Below the pieces are notes generated by a model, which saw only the letters and a program-made list of their open reading frames with translations, was not told the origin of the DNA and ran no database searches. From an uncultured Deferribacterales bacterium (GTDB taxonomy: Bacteria > Chrysiogenota > Deferribacteres > Deferribacterales > Mucispirillaceae): a stretch of DNA of 64,000 bases. The DNA lies in the NCBI GenBank assembly GCA_947853665.1, contig CANTXF010000065.1, positions 1-64,000 on the forward strand. The letters are read 5' to 3'. Below are positions 51,927-59,774 of this stretch, in pieces; positions within the stretch are counted from its first letter, which is position 1, and every line of letters begins with the position of its first letter. The position numbers and the translations under genes are program-made.

Positions 51927-52121
51927 AAGTTGTTCTCTCCGTATTAAATATAAACTCGTTGGGCTTATACCATTATTTAAGCAATAAATCAAGTTCCCGC
52001 CGCATTTACGAAAAAGCCGGCGCGCTTTTTTCGGAGCCCCGTCCGAATTTGCTTGAAATATGGGCGTGCTGCATATATAAGTATAGTTTATTCAATCAGA
52101 TACCTTGAAGAGAGCGTAAAT

Positions 52122-54197
52122 ATGCCATTTTATCTGCTGGAAATAGGATGCGAGGAAATACCCGCGGCCTTCGTGCCGTCCTCCGCCGCCTACCTGAAAA
52201 ACGAATTCGAAAAGCAGCTGGCGGCTTACGGCCTGCCCGCGGAGGAAATCGTCTCCGGCGGAACTCCCAGAAGGCTTTACGTATGCCTTAAAGGGCTGCC
52301 GGAGCGCCAGATAGACAGGTCGGAGCTTATAATGGGCCCGCCCGCCCGGATAGCCTTTTCGGAAAACGGAGAGCTTACGGAGGTGGGAAGGAAATTCGCC
52401 GAAAGCAAGGGTCTGGATATTTCCACCGTAAAGAAAATAACAACGCCCAAAGGCGATTATCTCCAGGGGGAGAAAAAAACGGGAGGCGGCGAGGCCGAAG
52501 CCGTGCTTAAGGAAATAGCGCCCCGCATCGCAGCAGGCGTGCCCTTTCCCAAATCCATGAGGTGGGGAAACGGGGATTTCAGGTTCGCAAGGCCCGTCCA
52601 CTGGTTTCTTTCCGTATTTTCCGGCAAAACGCTTGATTTCGAGATAGACGGAATAAAGGCCTCCGGCTTCACTTTCGGCCACAGATTCCTGGCTCCGGGA
52701 AAAATTGCCGTAAAGGATTTCGAGCAGTATAAAAGCGCCCTGCGGGAAGCCTTCGTCATAGCCGACGGAGAAGAGCGCGTAAGCATGATAAAAGAACAGG
52801 CCGCGGCCCTTGAAAAAGAATGCGGCTTCAGAATACGGCTGGACGGCGAGCTGCTTGAAACCGTGTCCAACCTTGTGGAATATCCTCACTGCGTCGCCGG
52901 CGCCTTCGACGAGAGCTTTCTGGCCCTGCCGAAAGAGGTGCTCATAACCTCCATGAAGGTGCACCAGAAATATTTTCCCGTGGAAAGCGACTCCGGCGTG
53001 CTGATGAACAGGTTTGTGGGCGTTTCCAATATGCTGCCTCCTTCCGGCGACGGCCTTATACGCCAGGGATACGAAAGAGTGCTGAAAGCAAGGCTCAACG
53101 ACGCCAGCTTCTTTTTCGGAAACGACAGGACAGTCCCTCTGCAAGACAGGGTGGAAGCCCTTAAAAAAGTCGTTTATCAGGAAAAGCTGGGCACGAGCTA
53201 CGAAAAGATGGTCCGTTTCAGAAAGCTGGCCGTGATGCTTGCGGAGAAGCTGGCTCCGGAAAAGATACAAACCACGGAAACGGCGGCGACTCTGGCAAAG
53301 GCCGACCTTATGAGCGAAATGGTATACGAATTTCCGGAGCTGCAGGGCCTTATGGGAAGCTATTACGCCAGGTTTGAAGGCAGGCCGGAAAACGTGTGCC
53401 GGGCCATATTCGAGCATTATCTGCCGCGTTTCGCGGGAGACGCGCTGCCAGAAACGGACGAAGGACGGTTCGTTTCCATAGCGGATAAGACGGACACCAT
53501 AGCGGGAGCTTTCGCCGCCGGCATGATACCTACCGGCAATCTGGATCCTTACGGCCTGCGGCGCGGAGCCATAGGTATTTTGTCCATAATAGAGGACGCA
53601 GGCATAAGGCTCGACCTGCGGGAGCTTACGGAAGCGGCCCTTGCGGGCCTTGAGGATAAGATAAAATTTGACAGGGCCGCGACGGAAAATAAAATACTCG
53701 GCTTTATAATGCAGCGCTGGAGGCAGATGCTGGTTTCAAGGGGAACGGTAGAGGGAGAAATATTCGACGCCGTCTCCGGCGGCTCCGCGGACCCGATAGC
53801 CGTTATGAATCTGGCCGCCGTCCTTACGGGGGCAAGAAGCAGCGAAAATTTCCAGATAATCGCGGGAAGCTTTAAGCGCATAAACAATATTCTGAAAAAA
53901 AACTCCTGGACGGATACAAGCTACACTGCGGAGCTTTTCCGGACGGACGAGGAAAAGGTCGTGGCCGGGCTTATAGAAAACCAAAACATAAAAGAGCTTC
54001 TGGAGGCGGAAAAAAATTACGACGCCCTGGACCAGCTTATGAAATTCGCCCCGGCAGTGAACGCGTTTTTCGATAAGGTGATGGTAATGGCCGAGGACGA
54101 GGCCGTAAGGGCCAACAGGCTGGGCCTTATAGCGCGGCTCAGGTCCGTTTTTCTGTACGTCGGCAATTTCGACGCCATAACCCTAAAGGACAAATAA
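52122..54197 (+). CDS. glyS: glycyl-tRNA synthetase beta subunit
   Basis: Beta chain of the alpha2-beta2 enzyme; 691 aa. It starts MPFYLLEIGCEEIPAAFVPSSAAYLK and has SMRWGNGDFRFARPVHWFLSVFSG, VEYPHCVAGAFDESFLALPKEVLITSMKVHQKYFP, ARLNDASFFFGND and TGNLDPYGLRRGAIGILSII. The alpha subunit (glyQ) is not adjacent. ATG 52122 matches the family start; the longer frame adds a non-homologous tail. Confidence 0.96.
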   Translation: MPFYLLEIGCEEIPAAFVPSSAAYLKNEFEKQLAAYGLPAEEIVSGGTPRRLYVCLKGLPERQIDRSELIMGPPARIAFSENGELTEVGRKFAESKGLDISTVKKITTPKGDYLQGEKKTGGGEAEAVLKEIAPRIAAGVPFPKSMRWGNGDFRFARPVHWFLSVFSGKTLDFEIDGIKASGFTFGHRFLAPGKIAVKDFEQYKSALREAFVIADGEERVSMIKEQAAALEKECGFRIRLDGELLETVSNLVEYPHCVAGAFDESFLALPKEVLITSMKVHQKYFPVESDSGVLMNRFVGVSNMLPPSGDGLIRQGYERVLKARLNDASFFFGNDRTVPLQDRVEALKKVVYQEKLGTSYEKMVRFRKLAVMLAEKLAPEKIQTTETAATLAKADLMSEMVYEFPELQGLMGSYYARFEGRPENVCRAIFEHYLPRFAGDALPETDEGRFVSIADKTDTIAGAFAAGMIPTGNLDPYGLRRGAIGILSIIEDAGIRLDLRELTEAALAGLEDKIKFDRAATENKILGFIMQRWRQMLVSRGTVEGEIFDAVSGGSADPIAVMNLAAVLTGARSSENFQIIAGSFKRINNILKKNSWTDTSYTAELFRTDEEKVVAGLIENQNIKELLEAEKNYDALDQLMKFAPAVNAFFDKVMVMAEDEAVRANRLGLIARLRSVFLYVGNFDAITLKDK

Positions 54198-54213: not shown

Positions 54214-55644
54214 ATGCGTGTCATAGACGTTATAGAAAACTACTGCGAATGCCGGATACAAAGCGTTGCCGCCGGTCTGCGCGGCGGCAGGACGTTTCTT
54301 TACGGCAAAGACGGGGACGCTCCTTTCAGCCTGTCGGTAAACCGCGGGGGGATAGGGGTAGAAATAAAATACTCGGCGAAAAGCGAAATGACTCCTGACA
54401 AGGCGAAATTCGCCGGAGAGATGATAGGCTGCCTTCTTGAAAACAGGGAAAGCTGGAGCCTCCATGAGGAGCTTTCCAAAGTGGCCGAAAATTCCGCCGG
54501 GTCGGAAGACTTAGACGAGCTTCTGCGGCAGATTCTCAATACGATAATATGCTCCCACCTTTTCGACAAGGCGGCCGTAATGTTCTGCAACCCTAAAAAA
54601 AGCGAGCTAAGAGCCGTGCAGATAGCGGGCATACCGCCTTACACGGAGGAGCAGGCGGAATATTTCAAAACGGTGCGCATACCGTTTACGGAGGAAACGC
54701 TGAACGCCTTTTCGGAGGGCGGGCAGGCCGCTTCCGGGGACGTGGGCACGGTTTTCGAGCGGATAGATAAAAAAAGGCTCAAAAATTCCCTTATAATATC
54801 GCCGCTGAAAACAGGGCGGAAGCTGTACGGCTTTCTCGTAACCTACGCGGAAACGCCCTACGGGGAAAAGCATATACACGCAAGCATAAGCACCGCCCGT
54901 TTCATCACGGCCACAATGGCGGCCACGATAGTTTACAAGCAGTACGCCCTCTCCCTGGCCTCGGAAAAACAGATGGCCAGCCAGATAAAAAACGACGAGA
55001 ACCTGCTTGCCCTGGGCAATTACGCCGCCGCCATAGCCCATGAAATAAAGAATCCGCTTATTTCCATAGGCGGCTTTGCCAAGCGGCTCATGAAAGCCAT
55101 AAACGACCCAAGCCTGCAAAAAATGGCCAATATAATATCCACCGAGTCGGAGCGGCTCGAAAGGCTCACGGAGGATATACTCTCCTTCTCCAAAAAGCAC
55201 GAGCCCGATAAAACCCCCGTGCCTCTGCTTGAGGAAATGGAAAATATCAAATCTCTTTTCGACCTGCGCTCTCAGGAAACGGGCATAGACATCATCCTGC
55301 GTATTCCTGAAAGCGCCGTAATAAACGTGGACAGAAACCAGTTCCGCCAGGTAACGGTAAACCTGATAGCAAACGCCATGACGGCCATAGGGACGGACGG
55401 GGCAGTAACCGTGTCCCTGGAAGAAAAAGAACGCTTTTACGTTATCATAATAGCAGACACGGGCAGCGGAATACCGGAGGAAAACCTCCCGAAGCTGTTT
55501 AAGCCGTTTTTTACCACCTCGTCCAAAGGCACCGGGCTGGGCCTTGCCATAAGCAAAAAGATAATGACTAACCACGGCGGAGACATAACGGTAAGAAACG
55601 GCGGCCGCGGGGCGGAGTTTTCCCTGCTGGTGCCAAAGCCGTAA
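54214..55644 (+). CDS. sensor histidine kinase (GAF, HisKA, HATPase)
   Basis: A 476-aa cytoplasmic sensor kinase. There is no membrane helix. The N-terminal region (1-90) is unassigned, a GAF-like domain covers about 95-250 and the HisKA box is AAAIAHEIKNPLISIGGFAKRL (His about 275). HATPase motifs are NLIANAMTAIG (N), IIIADTGSGIPEENLPKLFKPFFTT (G1 and F) and KGTGLGLAISKKIM (G2). It lies 16 bp after glyS, likely co-transcribed. No response regulator adjoins it. Confidence 0.9.
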   Translation: MRVIDVIENYCECRIQSVAAGLRGGRTFLYGKDGDAPFSLSVNRGGIGVEIKYSAKSEMTPDKAKFAGEMIGCLLENRESWSLHEELSKVAENSAGSEDLDELLRQILNTIICSHLFDKAAVMFCNPKKSELRAVQIAGIPPYTEEQAEYFKTVRIPFTEETLNAFSEGGQAASGDVGTVFERIDKKRLKNSLIISPLKTGRKLYGFLVTYAETPYGEKHIHASISTARFITATMAATIVYKQYALSLASEKQMASQIKNDENLLALGNYAAAIAHEIKNPLISIGGFAKRLMKAINDPSLQKMANIISTESERLERLTEDILSFSKKHEPDKTPVPLLEEMENIKSLFDLRSQETGIDIILRIPESAVINVDRNQFRQVTVNLIANAMTAIGTDGAVTVSLEEKERFYVIIIADTGSGIPEENLPKLFKPFFTTSSKGTGLGLAISKKIMTNHGGDITVRNGGRGAEFSLLVPKP

Positions 55645-55708: not shown

Positions 55709-57034
55709 ATGGTAACTAAAATCACCAAGGAAACCGTAGGCTCCATAAAAAACGAGGGGCTGAAACAAGACGCTCTGCGCTATGTAAACATGTACGGCGA
55801 GTTTATTAAAGCCGTAGAAGAATCCGGCGTTAAGGTTCACGATTCGGAGGACAGGGCGCAAAACGCCGCCCTTCTGGAAAAGCTGGAAAAAGCCGGGGCC
55901 GAAGTGCGCAACAACGGAAAAAGCGTGGTGCTCAACGCCATATCCCCCTCCTGCGAGGACTGCCGCACCGGTTTCGGTTCCTCCACATATATACTTACCC
56001 TGGCCTGCAACAGGGACTGTTTTTTCTGCACCAACAAAAACCAGATGGATTACGAAGGCGGCCAGCACAGGGTAAACGACGTAATATCCGGCTTCAAAAA
56101 CGACCTGAAACGGTATAAGGAAATGAAATCCGCCGCCCTTACCGGAGGCGAGCCTCTGCTCTATCCCGACAAATGCGCGGAATTTATAAAAAAAGTAAAA
56201 AAGACGTCGAAAAACGTGCAGACCCGCATATACACCAACGGAGATCTCGCCACGCCCGAAATACTTATGCAGCTTAAAGACGCCGGGCTGGACGAAATAC
56301 GCTTCGGCCTCAAGCCGGACGAAAGCGGAACGGTGGACGGTAAAATCCTCGACATAATGCGCGAGGCCGTCAAGTATATTCCCCGGGTAATGGTGGAAAT
56401 GCCCGTATTTCCCGGAACACTGGAAAAAATGAAGGAGCTTATGCTCACTCTCGACGAAATGGGCATATTCGGCGTAAACATACTGGAATTCCTATACCCC
56501 TGGGTACACCCGGAGGAATATTCGAAGCACGGCCACGAAGTGGCCCACAGGCCTTACGAAATACTTTTCAACTACACATACGCAGGCGGTCTGCCCGTAT
56601 CTGGAAGCGAGACGGAATGTCTGGAGCTGCTGCTTTTCTGCGCGGAGAAAAAAGTAAAAATGGGCGTTCATTACTGCTCCCTGGAAAACAAGCTCACTTC
56701 CCAGATATACCACCACAATTTCAACCTGCGCCTTACGGGGACCGAGGTTTTTTCTGAAAAAGACTTTTTCATAAAAACCGCCAAAGGCTACGGGCAGGAT
56801 ATAGAGTGGATAAAGGAAAAGCTGGACGAAGCAGGCTGCGACCACTATATTTTCAATAACAGCAGCAAGTTCATAGAATTTTCCCCAGAGCTCGTGCCGC
56901 TGCTTAAAGAAAGGGATATGGAGCTTGCCCTTACCTATCAGGCCGTCGATTTCGACGAAGAGGGCAACAAGGTGCTCAGAGAGGTTCAGATAGATATGAT
57001 AAACCCCAAAACCTTCCGGCCGGAAGACATATAA
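55709..57034 (+). CDS. radical SAM protein
   Basis: A 441-aa radical SAM enzyme. The cluster motif is CNRDCFFC (about residue 97) and SAALTGGEPLLYPDKC the SAM-binding GGE motif, followed by IYTNGDLATPEIL and DEIRFGLKP. The sequence before the cluster contains CEDCRTGFGSSTYILTLACN, with two further Cys that might bind metal. The C-terminal third has more Cys and His (VHYCSLENKLTSQIYHHNF) but no SPASM domain that I can name. It begins a coupled cluster; function not recognised. Confidence 0.85.
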   Translation: MVTKITKETVGSIKNEGLKQDALRYVNMYGEFIKAVEESGVKVHDSEDRAQNAALLEKLEKAGAEVRNNGKSVVLNAISPSCEDCRTGFGSSTYILTLACNRDCFFCTNKNQMDYEGGQHRVNDVISGFKNDLKRYKEMKSAALTGGEPLLYPDKCAEFIKKVKKTSKNVQTRIYTNGDLATPEILMQLKDAGLDEIRFGLKPDESGTVDGKILDIMREAVKYIPRVMVEMPVFPGTLEKMKELMLTLDEMGIFGVNILEFLYPWVHPEEYSKHGHEVAHRPYEILFNYTYAGGLPVSGSETECLELLLFCAEKKVKMGVHYCSLENKLTSQIYHHNFNLRLTGTEVFSEKDFFIKTAKGYGQDIEWIKEKLDEAGCDHYIFNNSSKFIEFSPELVPLLKERDMELALTYQAVDFDEEGNKVLREVQIDMINPKTFRPEDI

Positions 57035-57053
57035 GTGGAGGCTCCGGTTTTAA

Positions 57054-58145
57054 GTGTTCGGAAAACTCAATTTCGCCAACATGGTTCTGGACGGCGTTTC
57101 CAGGTCCATAAGCGTAAACCCCCAGCGCTGTTCCAGAATAAAGCATAAAAGCTCGCCCTGCACCGCATGCCACCTTAACTGCCCGGCGGACGCCATAAAC
57201 GTCGGCGGCCCCGGCATGACGATACGGGTGGACTGGGAAAAATGCACGGGCTGCGGGATATGCGTAAACGTATGCCCGTCCCAGGCTTACACTCTGCGCC
57301 ACGGCGGCTATAAACAGATAATAGACAACTGCTGCCGGGCCGTCTCTCCGGACGGAACGCTTATAATCGCCTGCGCTCAGGCGGATTCGGCCCTGGGCAC
57401 GGGCACGGCCACGATGGAATGTCTGGGCTTTCTTAACGCCGTAGATATTCTGGCCCTTTATCTGAGAGGGGCTAAAAAGATAATTTTCCGGCATGGAGAC
57501 TGCTCCGAATGCGCCTCGAAGCACGGAGATAAAATCCTTTCCAAAGAGACGGACGTGCTTAAGGAGCTTTCCGGCATTTTCGAGGATACGGCGGGCATGA
57601 CGGCGGATTTCTCCGGAAGCGGCCTGGTAATAGAATTTCCCAGGCAAAAACCCATAATAAGGCCGAAGGAAGAAGAAAAGCCAAACCCGGCGGTGGACAG
57701 GCGCGGGCTTTTTTCCTTTTTCACGCAAAATATCAAGGAATCGGCCATTAAAAGCGCCTCCATGATGACCGTGGAAAAGCTGGAGCCAAGAACGCTGATA
57801 TCCTTCGAGCAGTATCTGCCCCAAAGGCGCAGGCTGTTTCTCGACTCCATAATGAACCTGGGCGGCCTCGTATCGCCGGAAGCGGCAACGGGCAGGCTGT
57901 TCAACAACATAAGCATAGACGATTCCTGCGTTTTCTGCGGTATGTGCGTCAAATTCTGCTGCACCGGCGCGCTGAAAATGAACGAGGAAAAAACGGAAAT
58001 AACCTTTAACCCGTCGAAATGCACCTCGTGCATGCTTTGCGAAAAAGCCTGCTATCACGGAAAGCTCCATTATAAGGACTCTCTCGAGCTTAAAGACTTT
58101 TTCAGCGACATACCGACGGTAAAAAGAAGCCCGGAAGAAAAATAA
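57054..58145 (+). CDS. polyferredoxin-type [4Fe-4S] protein
   Basis: A 363-aa soluble protein with four Cys-rich cluster regions: CTACHLNCP (about 36), CTGCGICVNVCP (about 64), CVFCGMCVKFCC (about 292) and CTSCMLCEKACY (about 323). A middle domain (about 85-170; IIACAQADSALG, FRHGDCSECASKHG) resembles small Fe-S/flavin-linked electron-transfer subunits. It starts with GTG 57054. Its stop overlaps the next start by one base (TAATG), so it is tightly coupled to the thioesterase. Confidence 0.8.
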   Translation: MFGKLNFANMVLDGVSRSISVNPQRCSRIKHKSSPCTACHLNCPADAINVGGPGMTIRVDWEKCTGCGICVNVCPSQAYTLRHGGYKQIIDNCCRAVSPDGTLIIACAQADSALGTGTATMECLGFLNAVDILALYLRGAKKIIFRHGDCSECASKHGDKILSKETDVLKELSGIFEDTAGMTADFSGSGLVIEFPRQKPIIRPKEEEKPNPAVDRRGLFSFFTQNIKESAIKSASMMTVEKLEPRTLISFEQYLPQRRRLFLDSIMNLGGLVSPEAATGRLFNNISIDDSCVFCGMCVKFCCTGALKMNEEKTEITFNPSKCTSCMLCEKACYHGKLHYKDSLELKDFFSDIPTVKRSPEEK

Positions 58146-58900
58146 TGGACCCTCTCTACCGCGTCGGCGGAAAGGTAAGCTACAGCCAGGTTTCATCAGA
58201 CGGCCGCCTCGCCCTTTACGCCGCCATGAACTACATGCAGGACTGCGGAGCCTTCCAGATGGAGGAGCTGGGCCGCGGGGCGGAATATTTTAAGAATAAC
58301 GGCCAGGCCCTTTTCATAACCGCCTGGCAGGTGGAAATGGACGAAATGCCCCTTATGGGCACGGAAATATATACCGACACGTGGATATACGGCTACGACG
58401 CCATTTCCTGTTACAGAAACTATATTATAAGAGGCGCGGACGGCAGGGTTTATATAAGGGCTTACGCGGCGGGGGCGTTCGTAGACGCTTCCACCGGGAA
58501 GCCGACTCGCCTTACGGAAGATATTATGTCCCATTATCCTATGGATAAAAAAATGGACATGGATTATCTGCCAAGAAAGATAAAGCTCCCCTCCTCCTGG
58601 GACGCGGAAGGACACGGGCTTAAAATAACAAAGCGGCACCTTGACAGAAACTCCCACGTGAATAATTCAAGATACATCGCCATAGCGGAAGAGCAGCTGC
58701 CGGACGATTTCCGCGCCGTGCGTATGAGGGTGGAGTATAAAAAGCCCGCCGCAGACGGAGACGTAATGGTCCCCCGGCTAAAGCGCTCGGAAAAAAGCTG
58801 CGTCGTGGCTCTGTGCCCGCCGGAGGGGACGCCGTACGCGGTTACGGAGTTTTTCCCCGCGGGATGCGCCGGGCAAAGGGCGGGAGAAGGTCTTTGCTGA
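58145..58900 (+). CDS. acyl-ACP thioesterase
   Basis: A 251-aa double hot-dog enzyme that releases fatty acids from acyl-ACP. The first domain has SDGRLALYAAMNYMQDCGAFQMEELG and WQVEMDEMPLMGTEI; the second has the typical KRHLDRNSHVNNSRYIAIAEEQLP with Asn and His for catalysis. It overlaps the Fe-S gene by one base and the LysO N-half by 7 bases. Confidence 0.9.
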   Translation: MDPLYRVGGKVSYSQVSSDGRLALYAAMNYMQDCGAFQMEELGRGAEYFKNNGQALFITAWQVEMDEMPLMGTEIYTDTWIYGYDAISCYRNYIIRGADGRVYIRAYAAGAFVDASTGKPTRLTEDIMSHYPMDKKMDMDYLPRKIKLPSSWDAEGHGLKITKRHLDRNSHVNNSRYIAIAEEQLPDDFRAVRMRVEYKKPAADGDVMVPRLKRSEKSCVVALCPPEGTPYAVTEFFPAGCAGQRAGEGLC

Positions 58901-59172
58901 TACTTGCGATCATGGCGGCGGGAGCGCTGGCCGGTTTCTTTCTTTTCCCCGATAAAAGGCTGAAATGGAGCGAGCGGATACAGCTTATCTGCACCTGCCT
59001 GCTTATATTCTCAATGGGAGTAATACTCGGCGGCAGGGAAAATTTTATGGACGAGCTTCTGTCTTTAGGATTCAGAAGCCTGGTTTTCGCCATTATACCG
59101 ATAGCCTTTTCCATAGCGGCGGTTTATTTCCTCACTGAAAAGTTTCTCCGCGGCGGGGATAAAAGAAAATGA
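58894..59172 (+). CDS. LysO-family transporter, N-terminal half
   Basis: A 92-aa membrane protein with three helices (LLILAIMAAGALAGFFLF, LICTCLLIFSMGVILGG, SLVFAIIPIAFSIAAVYFL). LysO (DUF340) exports lysine; in several lineages it is split into two genes, as here. TTG 58894 overlaps the thioesterase stop and follows GGAG by 7 nt; longer starts lie deep in the thioesterase gene. Confidence 0.75.
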   Translation: MLILAIMAAGALAGFFLFPDKRLKWSERIQLICTCLLIFSMGVILGGRENFMDELLSLGFRSLVFAIIPIAFSIAAVYFLTEKFLRGGDKRK

Positions 59173-59774
59173 TGGCTTCAGCCGCCGTGATATGCCTCGT
59201 CCTGGGCGTGATATGCGGCCAGGCGGACGGCTCCGGAGCCGTATCCGGTTTTTTCGGGGCCAACGCCCACATCATACTTTACATACTGATGTTTTTCGTC
59301 GGGATAAGCGTAGGAGCCAACAGGACGGTATTTTCAAAAATAAGGCAATACCATGTAAAGATATTTATAATCCCCGCCGGGATAGTAGCCGGCTCCGTTG
59401 CCGCAGGCGCTCTGTGCGCCCCTCTTTTAGGCCTAGAATGGGGGCAAAGCATGGCAGTGACCTCCTCTCTAGGCTGGTACAGTCTTTCGGGAGTTATGAT
59501 AACGGAGCTGGGCGGGGCGGAAATGGGCGCTGTGGCTTTTATGAGCAGCCTTATGAGGGAGATACTTTCTTTCCTGCTTATACCTTTTATCGCCCGCTAC
59601 CTTAACGCCTACACCACCATAGCCCCGGCAGCCGCCACAAGCGAAGACACCACCCTGCCGGCCATACTGAAATACGGCGGCGCGGAAACGGCGGTAATGG
59701 CCGTGTTCAACGGAGTGTTCTGCTCGGCTCTGGTGCCGGTGCTGATACGCTTTTTCATGGGGTTAGGATTCTAA
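59169..59774 (+). CDS. LysO-family transporter, C-terminal half
   Basis: A 201-aa membrane protein, overlapping the N-half by 4 nt (ATGA). HIILYILMFFVGISVGAN, SSLGWYSLSGVMITELGGAEMGAVAFMSSLMREILSFLLIPFIAR and the C-terminal VMAVFNGVFCSALVPVLIRFF match LysO. It probably pairs with the N-half to export lysine or a similar cation. The 3' end overlaps the convergent M24 gene by 12 bp. Confidence 0.85.
   Translation: MMASAAVICLVLGVICGQADGSGAVSGFFGANAHIILYILMFFVGISVGANRTVFSKIRQYHVKIFIIPAGIVAGSVAAGALCAPLLGLEWGQSMAVTSSLGWYSLSGVMITELGGAEMGAVAFMSSLMREILSFLLIPFIARYLNAYTTIAPAAATSEDTTLPAILKYGGAETAVMAVFNGVFCSALVPVLIRFFMGLGF

Follow-up and report, generated by a model that had tools for sequence, protein, structure and literature searches.

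A radical SAM and polyferredoxin gene pair that probably assists DmsA-like molybdenum reductases in Mucispirillaceae and relatives

We conclude that a radical SAM protein and a polyferredoxin encoded side by side in a member of the Mucispirillaceae are a real pair, and that they are probably an accessory module, likely for maturation, of exported, Tat-dependent DmsA-like molybdenum reductases, on which they would act in trans in this genome. With moderate confidence, we reassign the pair to molybdoenzyme biogenesis. A preliminary description of the 64,000-nt stretch of DNA analyzed here (the window) had joined the pair to an acyl-ACP thioesterase and a split LysO. The five genes form a set in this genome only, and we judge the thioesterase and both LysO halves to be unrelated neighbors of the pair.

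The pair and its neighbors in the window

The five open reading frames (ORFs) all lie on the + strand with the spacing first described, downstream of glyS and a histidine kinase gene:

52053-54197, + strand: glyS, glycyl-tRNA synthetase beta subunit; 5'-most gene of the family's conserved block
54214-55644, + strand: sensor histidine kinase, directly 5' of the pair (PF00512, PF02518)
55709-57034, + strand: radical SAM protein, 441 aa; ATG start; PF04055
57054-58145, + strand: polyferredoxin, 363 aa; GTG start, 19-bp gap after the radical SAM gene; Fer4 families
58145-58900, + strand: acyl-ACP thioesterase; 1-base overlap with the polyferredoxin gene; PF01643/PF20791
58894-59172, + strand: LysO N-half; proposed TTG start, 7-base overlap with the thioesterase gene; PF03956
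59169-59774, + strand: LysO C-half; 4-base overlap with the N-half; PF03956

The gap and the three overlaps are all present, the 7-base overlap requiring that the LysO N-half start at TTG 58894. From this codon, just 5' of which stands GGAGAAGG, the N-half is about 92 aa long (relatives, about 90 aa); the mechanical ORF start, GTG 58813, would give an 88-base overlap. The histidine kinase and radical SAM genes are 64 bp apart, versus a few bases in Mucispirillum. It is plausible that the five ORFs are co-transcribed; a promoter scan found 7 candidates versus 7.5 expected, which is background level and therefore no test of co-transcription. No reductase gene lies beside the pair in the 64,000-nt window, nor does the block in the window contain a TorD-type gene.

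Gene order across relatives

Gene order was compared in a phylum set of 51 species, in which the window genome (G000, 2.43 Mb) represents a genus of its own within the family of Mucispirillum. We take genus g3 of this set to be Mucispirillum and family f6 to be Geovibrionaceae. The Mucispirillum locus has the order glyS, histidine kinase, radical SAM, polyferredoxin, followed, where the contig reaches, by a convergent M24 peptidase gene. The histidine kinase of this locus is a conserved neighbor (42-45% identical within the family). In genus g2, which has no radical SAM gene, glyS, the kinase gene, and the polyferredoxin gene run directly into thiG.

In many operons, the radical SAM gene either borders the polyferredoxin gene or is separated from it by a single gene. 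The radical SAM gene occurs inside DmsA-like reductase operons in Geovibrionaceae, in the Deferribacterota families f3 and f5, and in one Thermodesulfobacteriota MAG. The fullest operon encodes a porin-like protein, a multihaem cytochrome, a DmsA-like alpha subunit with a Tat signal, a DmsB-like Fe-S subunit, the radical SAM protein, a TorD-type chaperone, and the polyferredoxin. Subsets of it occur, the common core having the order DmsA, DmsB, radical SAM, TorD-type chaperone, polyferredoxin. The polyferredoxin gene is also the last gene of DmsA-DmsB-TorD-type operons that have no radical SAM gene, and two operons (L044 and L047) retain radical SAM and TorD-type genes with the polyferredoxin gene absent. 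A RiPP precursor gene was sought between the DmsB and radical SAM genes, where no ORF recurs and where several operons are too tightly packed to hold one.

The operon partners are best matched in NCBIfam by DmsA/YnfE (TIGR02166), with which they share a Tat signal, PF00384, and a DmsB-type partner, but they are 940-1000 aa long and carry insertions. Three of them score 441.9, 489.9, and 441.0 bits against a cut-off of 777.7, and we therefore call them DmsA-like.

More distant homologues of the radical SAM protein, in Eggerthellaceae and related organisms, share 33-40% identity with the window protein. DMSO-reductase-family genes are found nearby in 9 of 14 loci, versus 21-32% expected for a randomly chosen position in a genome that carries 40 to 60 genes of this kind, a rough comparison given that some loci are short and ORF calls in GC-rich DNA are noisy. 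The Nitrospirota homologues stand alone.

Two minor features of these operons may be recorded. In L044 (6235-7035) and L047 (6402-7199), a protein of about 265 aa with no Pfam match is encoded after the TorD-type gene. In L048 (13042-14960), upstream of the DmsA-like gene stand genes for a porin-like protein (no Pfam match) and a small cytochrome having about six CXXCH motifs; this arrangement recalls the extracellular DMSO respiration of Shewanella.

Co-occurrence, descent, and reductase content

The radical SAM gene is present in 25 of the 51 genomes, distant paralogues left out. Among genomes at least 90% complete, and with kinship ignored, the polyferredoxin accompanies it in 20 of 20, versus 5 of the 19 genomes that lack it. 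This co-occurrence and the adjacency of the two genes bear out one part of the preliminary description, namely that the two proteins belong together; the tie that it drew to the last three genes is contradicted by gene order.

A profile of the operon-linked DmsA-like proteins (matches at E of at most 1e-60) shows a similar pattern outside the window genome's own family: it matches in 13 of the 15 genomes that carry the radical SAM gene versus 0 of the 21 others, again with kinship ignored. Three genera (g5, g12, and g16) hold both states, and the rule is obeyed in each. The median number of matches to PF00384, the molybdopterin-oxidoreductase family, is 12 with the radical SAM gene versus 5.5 without it, kinship likewise ignored. 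The co-occurrence signal partly reflects inheritance of one operon, which in its own right argues for a unit. Within the window genome's family, the association is loose: G001, G003, G005, G006, and G013 (the last incomplete) have matches to the DmsA-like profile (in G005, a reductase of the linked subfamily) but no radical SAM gene, and G002, G017, G018, and G024 have the gene with no high-scoring reductase of that subfamily. In G017, the radical SAM gene (L042:8572-9894) contains one in-frame TAG, reflecting decay or a sequence error.

In a tree of 38 radical SAM proteins, those of the window and of Mucispirillum nest inside the operon-linked clade, in a seven-row group with L044, L045, and L047 (support 99/97). 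The operon-linked state is therefore probably the older one, the pair having been split from the reductases in Mucispirillaceae. Geovibrionaceae paralogues form a separate clade with Elusimicrobiota proteins, and the long branch of one Eggerthellaceae row (L164), apparently translated in the wrong frame, is to be ignored. The Geovibrionaceae paralogues (L062-L067) share about 30% identity with the window protein, and most of them are not next to reductase genes.

The window genome has 27 PF00384 matches, the most in the phylum set, and four reductases of the operon-linked subfamily, numbers that fit action of the pair in trans on several enzymes. One of its operons (L204:3959-10758, contig C32) encodes porin-like, multihaem cytochrome, DmsA-like, DmsB-like, and TorD-type proteins, which is the order of the Geovibrionaceae operon minus the pair. 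Many DmsA-DmsB(-TorD) operons occur in this genome (L202-L220). Strains of Eggerthella and Gordonibacter are reported to have 30-60 enzymes of this kind, near the 27 found here (PMC11574389).

Radical SAM protein

Membership of the radical SAM superfamily is clear from the Pfam match (PF04055, 59.9 bits; cut-off, 29.5), from barrel matches in the PDB, and from the CX3CX2C motif, whose AdoMet-cluster cysteines C100, C104, and C107 are invariant in both alignments (A1 and A3). Also invariant in these alignments are a cysteine pair just before the motif (C82 and C85) and C323, which lies in an HYCSxENK motif. Their conservation indicates that all six cysteines are likely functional, and C82, C85, and C323 could bind another cluster or a metal. 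C323 is the sole invariant cysteine after the core, which does not agree with a SPASM/twitch maturase. The tungsten cofactor oxidoreductase maturase TIGR04317 is comparable in that it, too, is a radical SAM protein with a Mo/W enzyme as partner; against its cut-off of 380 bits, the window protein scores 35.4. That maturase serves the AOR family, a different enzyme family. In all, 36 NCBIfam models match the protein, and none of the 25 listed comes near its cut-off.

Structure prediction gave a confident model (pLDDT 92.7) but no name: a search of the PDB with it returned only generic barrels at a query TM of at most 0.40, among them viperin, NifB, PFL activase, lipoyl synthase, and MqnE. We therefore do not name the protein from either NCBIfam or structure.

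Since viperin and MqnE are small-molecule enzymes, these matches would also suit a metabolic role, in which the radical SAM protein would produce or transform a small molecule (electron acceptor, quinone-like carrier, or modified pterin) for the respiratory chain of the reductase and leave the reductase itself untouched. Operon linkage fits such a role equally well. We nevertheless consider it unlikely, as the TorD-type chaperone and NapF-like ferredoxin encoded close by point toward biogenesis and the same radical SAM family accompanies reductases of different subfamilies.

Polyferredoxin

The polyferredoxin contains four tetra-cysteine motifs, whose 16 cysteines are invariant alignment columns, and three further invariant cysteines (C107, C150, and C153) in the stretch that separates its two ferredoxin parts. 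An internal twin arginine (R216-R217) is likewise invariant and in some relatives is part of an SRRxFF sequence. The structure model (pLDDT 75) found only weak FwdF-like and ferredoxin matches, and the structure search did not support reading the middle part, with C107, C150, and C153, as MvhD-like.

The closest likeness is to NapF: both are of the cytoplasmic type, have four tetra-cysteine motifs, are tied to an exported molybdoenzyme, and carry a twin arginine, internal or N-terminal (NapF details in part from PMC10609526). NapF interacts with NapA and has been proposed to aid its Fe-S assembly before export (PMC10609526). Unlike NapF, the window protein is about twice as long and has the three additional invariant cysteines, and its family accompanies DmsA-like rather than NapA enzymes. 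It scores 31.9 bits against the NapF model TIGR00402, and the L048 polyferredoxin scores 45.6; both fall below the cut-off of 102.2, so we describe the protein as like NapF rather than as NapF.

The polyferredoxin might by itself be the reductase accessory, the radical SAM protein doing something unrelated and merely traveling along. In keeping with this, the polyferredoxin gene closes reductase operons devoid of a radical SAM gene and has been retained in genus g2 despite loss of that gene, and the Nitrospirota radical SAM genes stand alone. Against it, L044 and L047 keep the radical SAM and TorD-type genes with no polyferredoxin gene, and the presence of the radical SAM gene still follows that of the DmsA-like enzyme. 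We regard a role for the polyferredoxin alone as quite improbable.

Proposed role in molybdoenzyme biogenesis

Maturation is our preferred reading for the pair because of the likeness of the polyferredoxin to NapF, the conserved residues, and the precedent of the Eggerthella accessory proteins. The pair would most likely work in the cytoplasm, during completion of the catalytic subunit. The NapF-like polyferredoxin, with four predicted [4Fe-4S] clusters, would provide electrons and perhaps Fe-S clusters, and the radical SAM enzyme would act by cleaving AdoMet and altering either the polypeptide or the cofactor of the reductase. The genes of Geovibrionaceae and some other groups lie within the reductase operon, beside that for the TorD-type chaperone; in Mucispirillaceae, the pair, placed behind glyS and the histidine kinase gene, would serve reductases in trans. 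The thioesterase and LysO genes were presumably added downstream in this genome and would have no part in the module.

A more specific proposal is possible, though we advance it tentatively: a new radical SAM maturase that modifies the DmsA-like catalytic subunit or its pterin, with the polyferredoxin as donor, and that acts in trans on several paralogues in Mucispirillaceae of the gut and perhaps in Eggerthellaceae. When operon-linked DmsA proteins were searched for a modified residue, the distinguishing columns reflected subfamily and yielded no single candidate. To our knowledge, modification of a reductase or its cofactor by a radical SAM enzyme would be chemistry new to the DMSO-reductase family. 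In the limited part of the literature searched, we found neither a radical SAM helper for a DMSO-reductase-type branch nor a paper that combines radical SAM, polyferredoxin, and TorD.

Among known systems, the TorD/DmsD/NarJ chaperones (REMPs) are maturation partners of the same reductases and are encoded beside the radical SAM gene, but they are chaperones with no redox cofactor. The accessory proteins of Eggerthella catechol dehydroxylases (DadhD-H and similar) combine a TorD-like chaperone with ferredoxins in support of DMSO-reductase-family activity; their ferredoxins are membrane spanning, and no radical SAM protein is described among them in the portions of the source used here (PMC11887054). 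The activity of these dehydroxylases depends on the accessory proteins, for the most part in ways that go beyond expression, and several dehydroxylases may share one set (PMC11887054).

Anaerobes of the gut and of sediments respire catechols, steroids, drugs, and oxyanions via DMSO-reductase-family enzymes, many of which are hard to make in standard hosts (PMC11574389, PMC11887054). An unrecognized helper pair could partly explain poor production of such reductases, and its genes would be an obvious addition.

Thioesterase and LysO as neighbors

The thioesterase matches PF01643 at 63.4 bits (cut-off, 23.7), and its PDB relatives are acyl-ACP thioesterases. The LysO C-half matches PF03956 at 197.5 bits and the N-half at 23.8 bits, exactly the cut-off of 23.8; the two halves are encoded together, and the motifs around the two essential acidic residues of E. 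coli LysO appear intact here. Neither thioesterase nor LysO genes occur near the radical SAM or polyferredoxin genes in the 98 neighborhoods compared, and both are missing from the glyS-kinase-radical SAM-polyferredoxin locus of the sister genus Mucispirillum. Elsewhere in the order, their homologues (at most 29% identity for the thioesterase and 28-44% for LysO) lie on other contigs or far off.

The preliminary description had suggested one pathway, in which fatty acid released by the thioesterase becomes a lipid- or amino-acid-derived product exported via LysO; tight coupling of the ORFs in this genome favors it, but the gene-order survey that the description itself proposed found thioesterase and LysO absent from this position in sister genera and located elsewhere in other families. 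LysO of E. coli is an exporter of lysine and thialysine (PMC8498466). On the basis of gene order, we reject the pathway as very improbable. The description was right that the five together are not a recognized set, as the combination occurs in no other genome examined.

The division of LysO is a separate matter. Most of the 19 examined loci (L119-L137) have a match to the N-half directly 5' of the C-half, and in most of the phylum's other families LysO is encoded as two halves that overlap or abut; the split is therefore not peculiar to the window.
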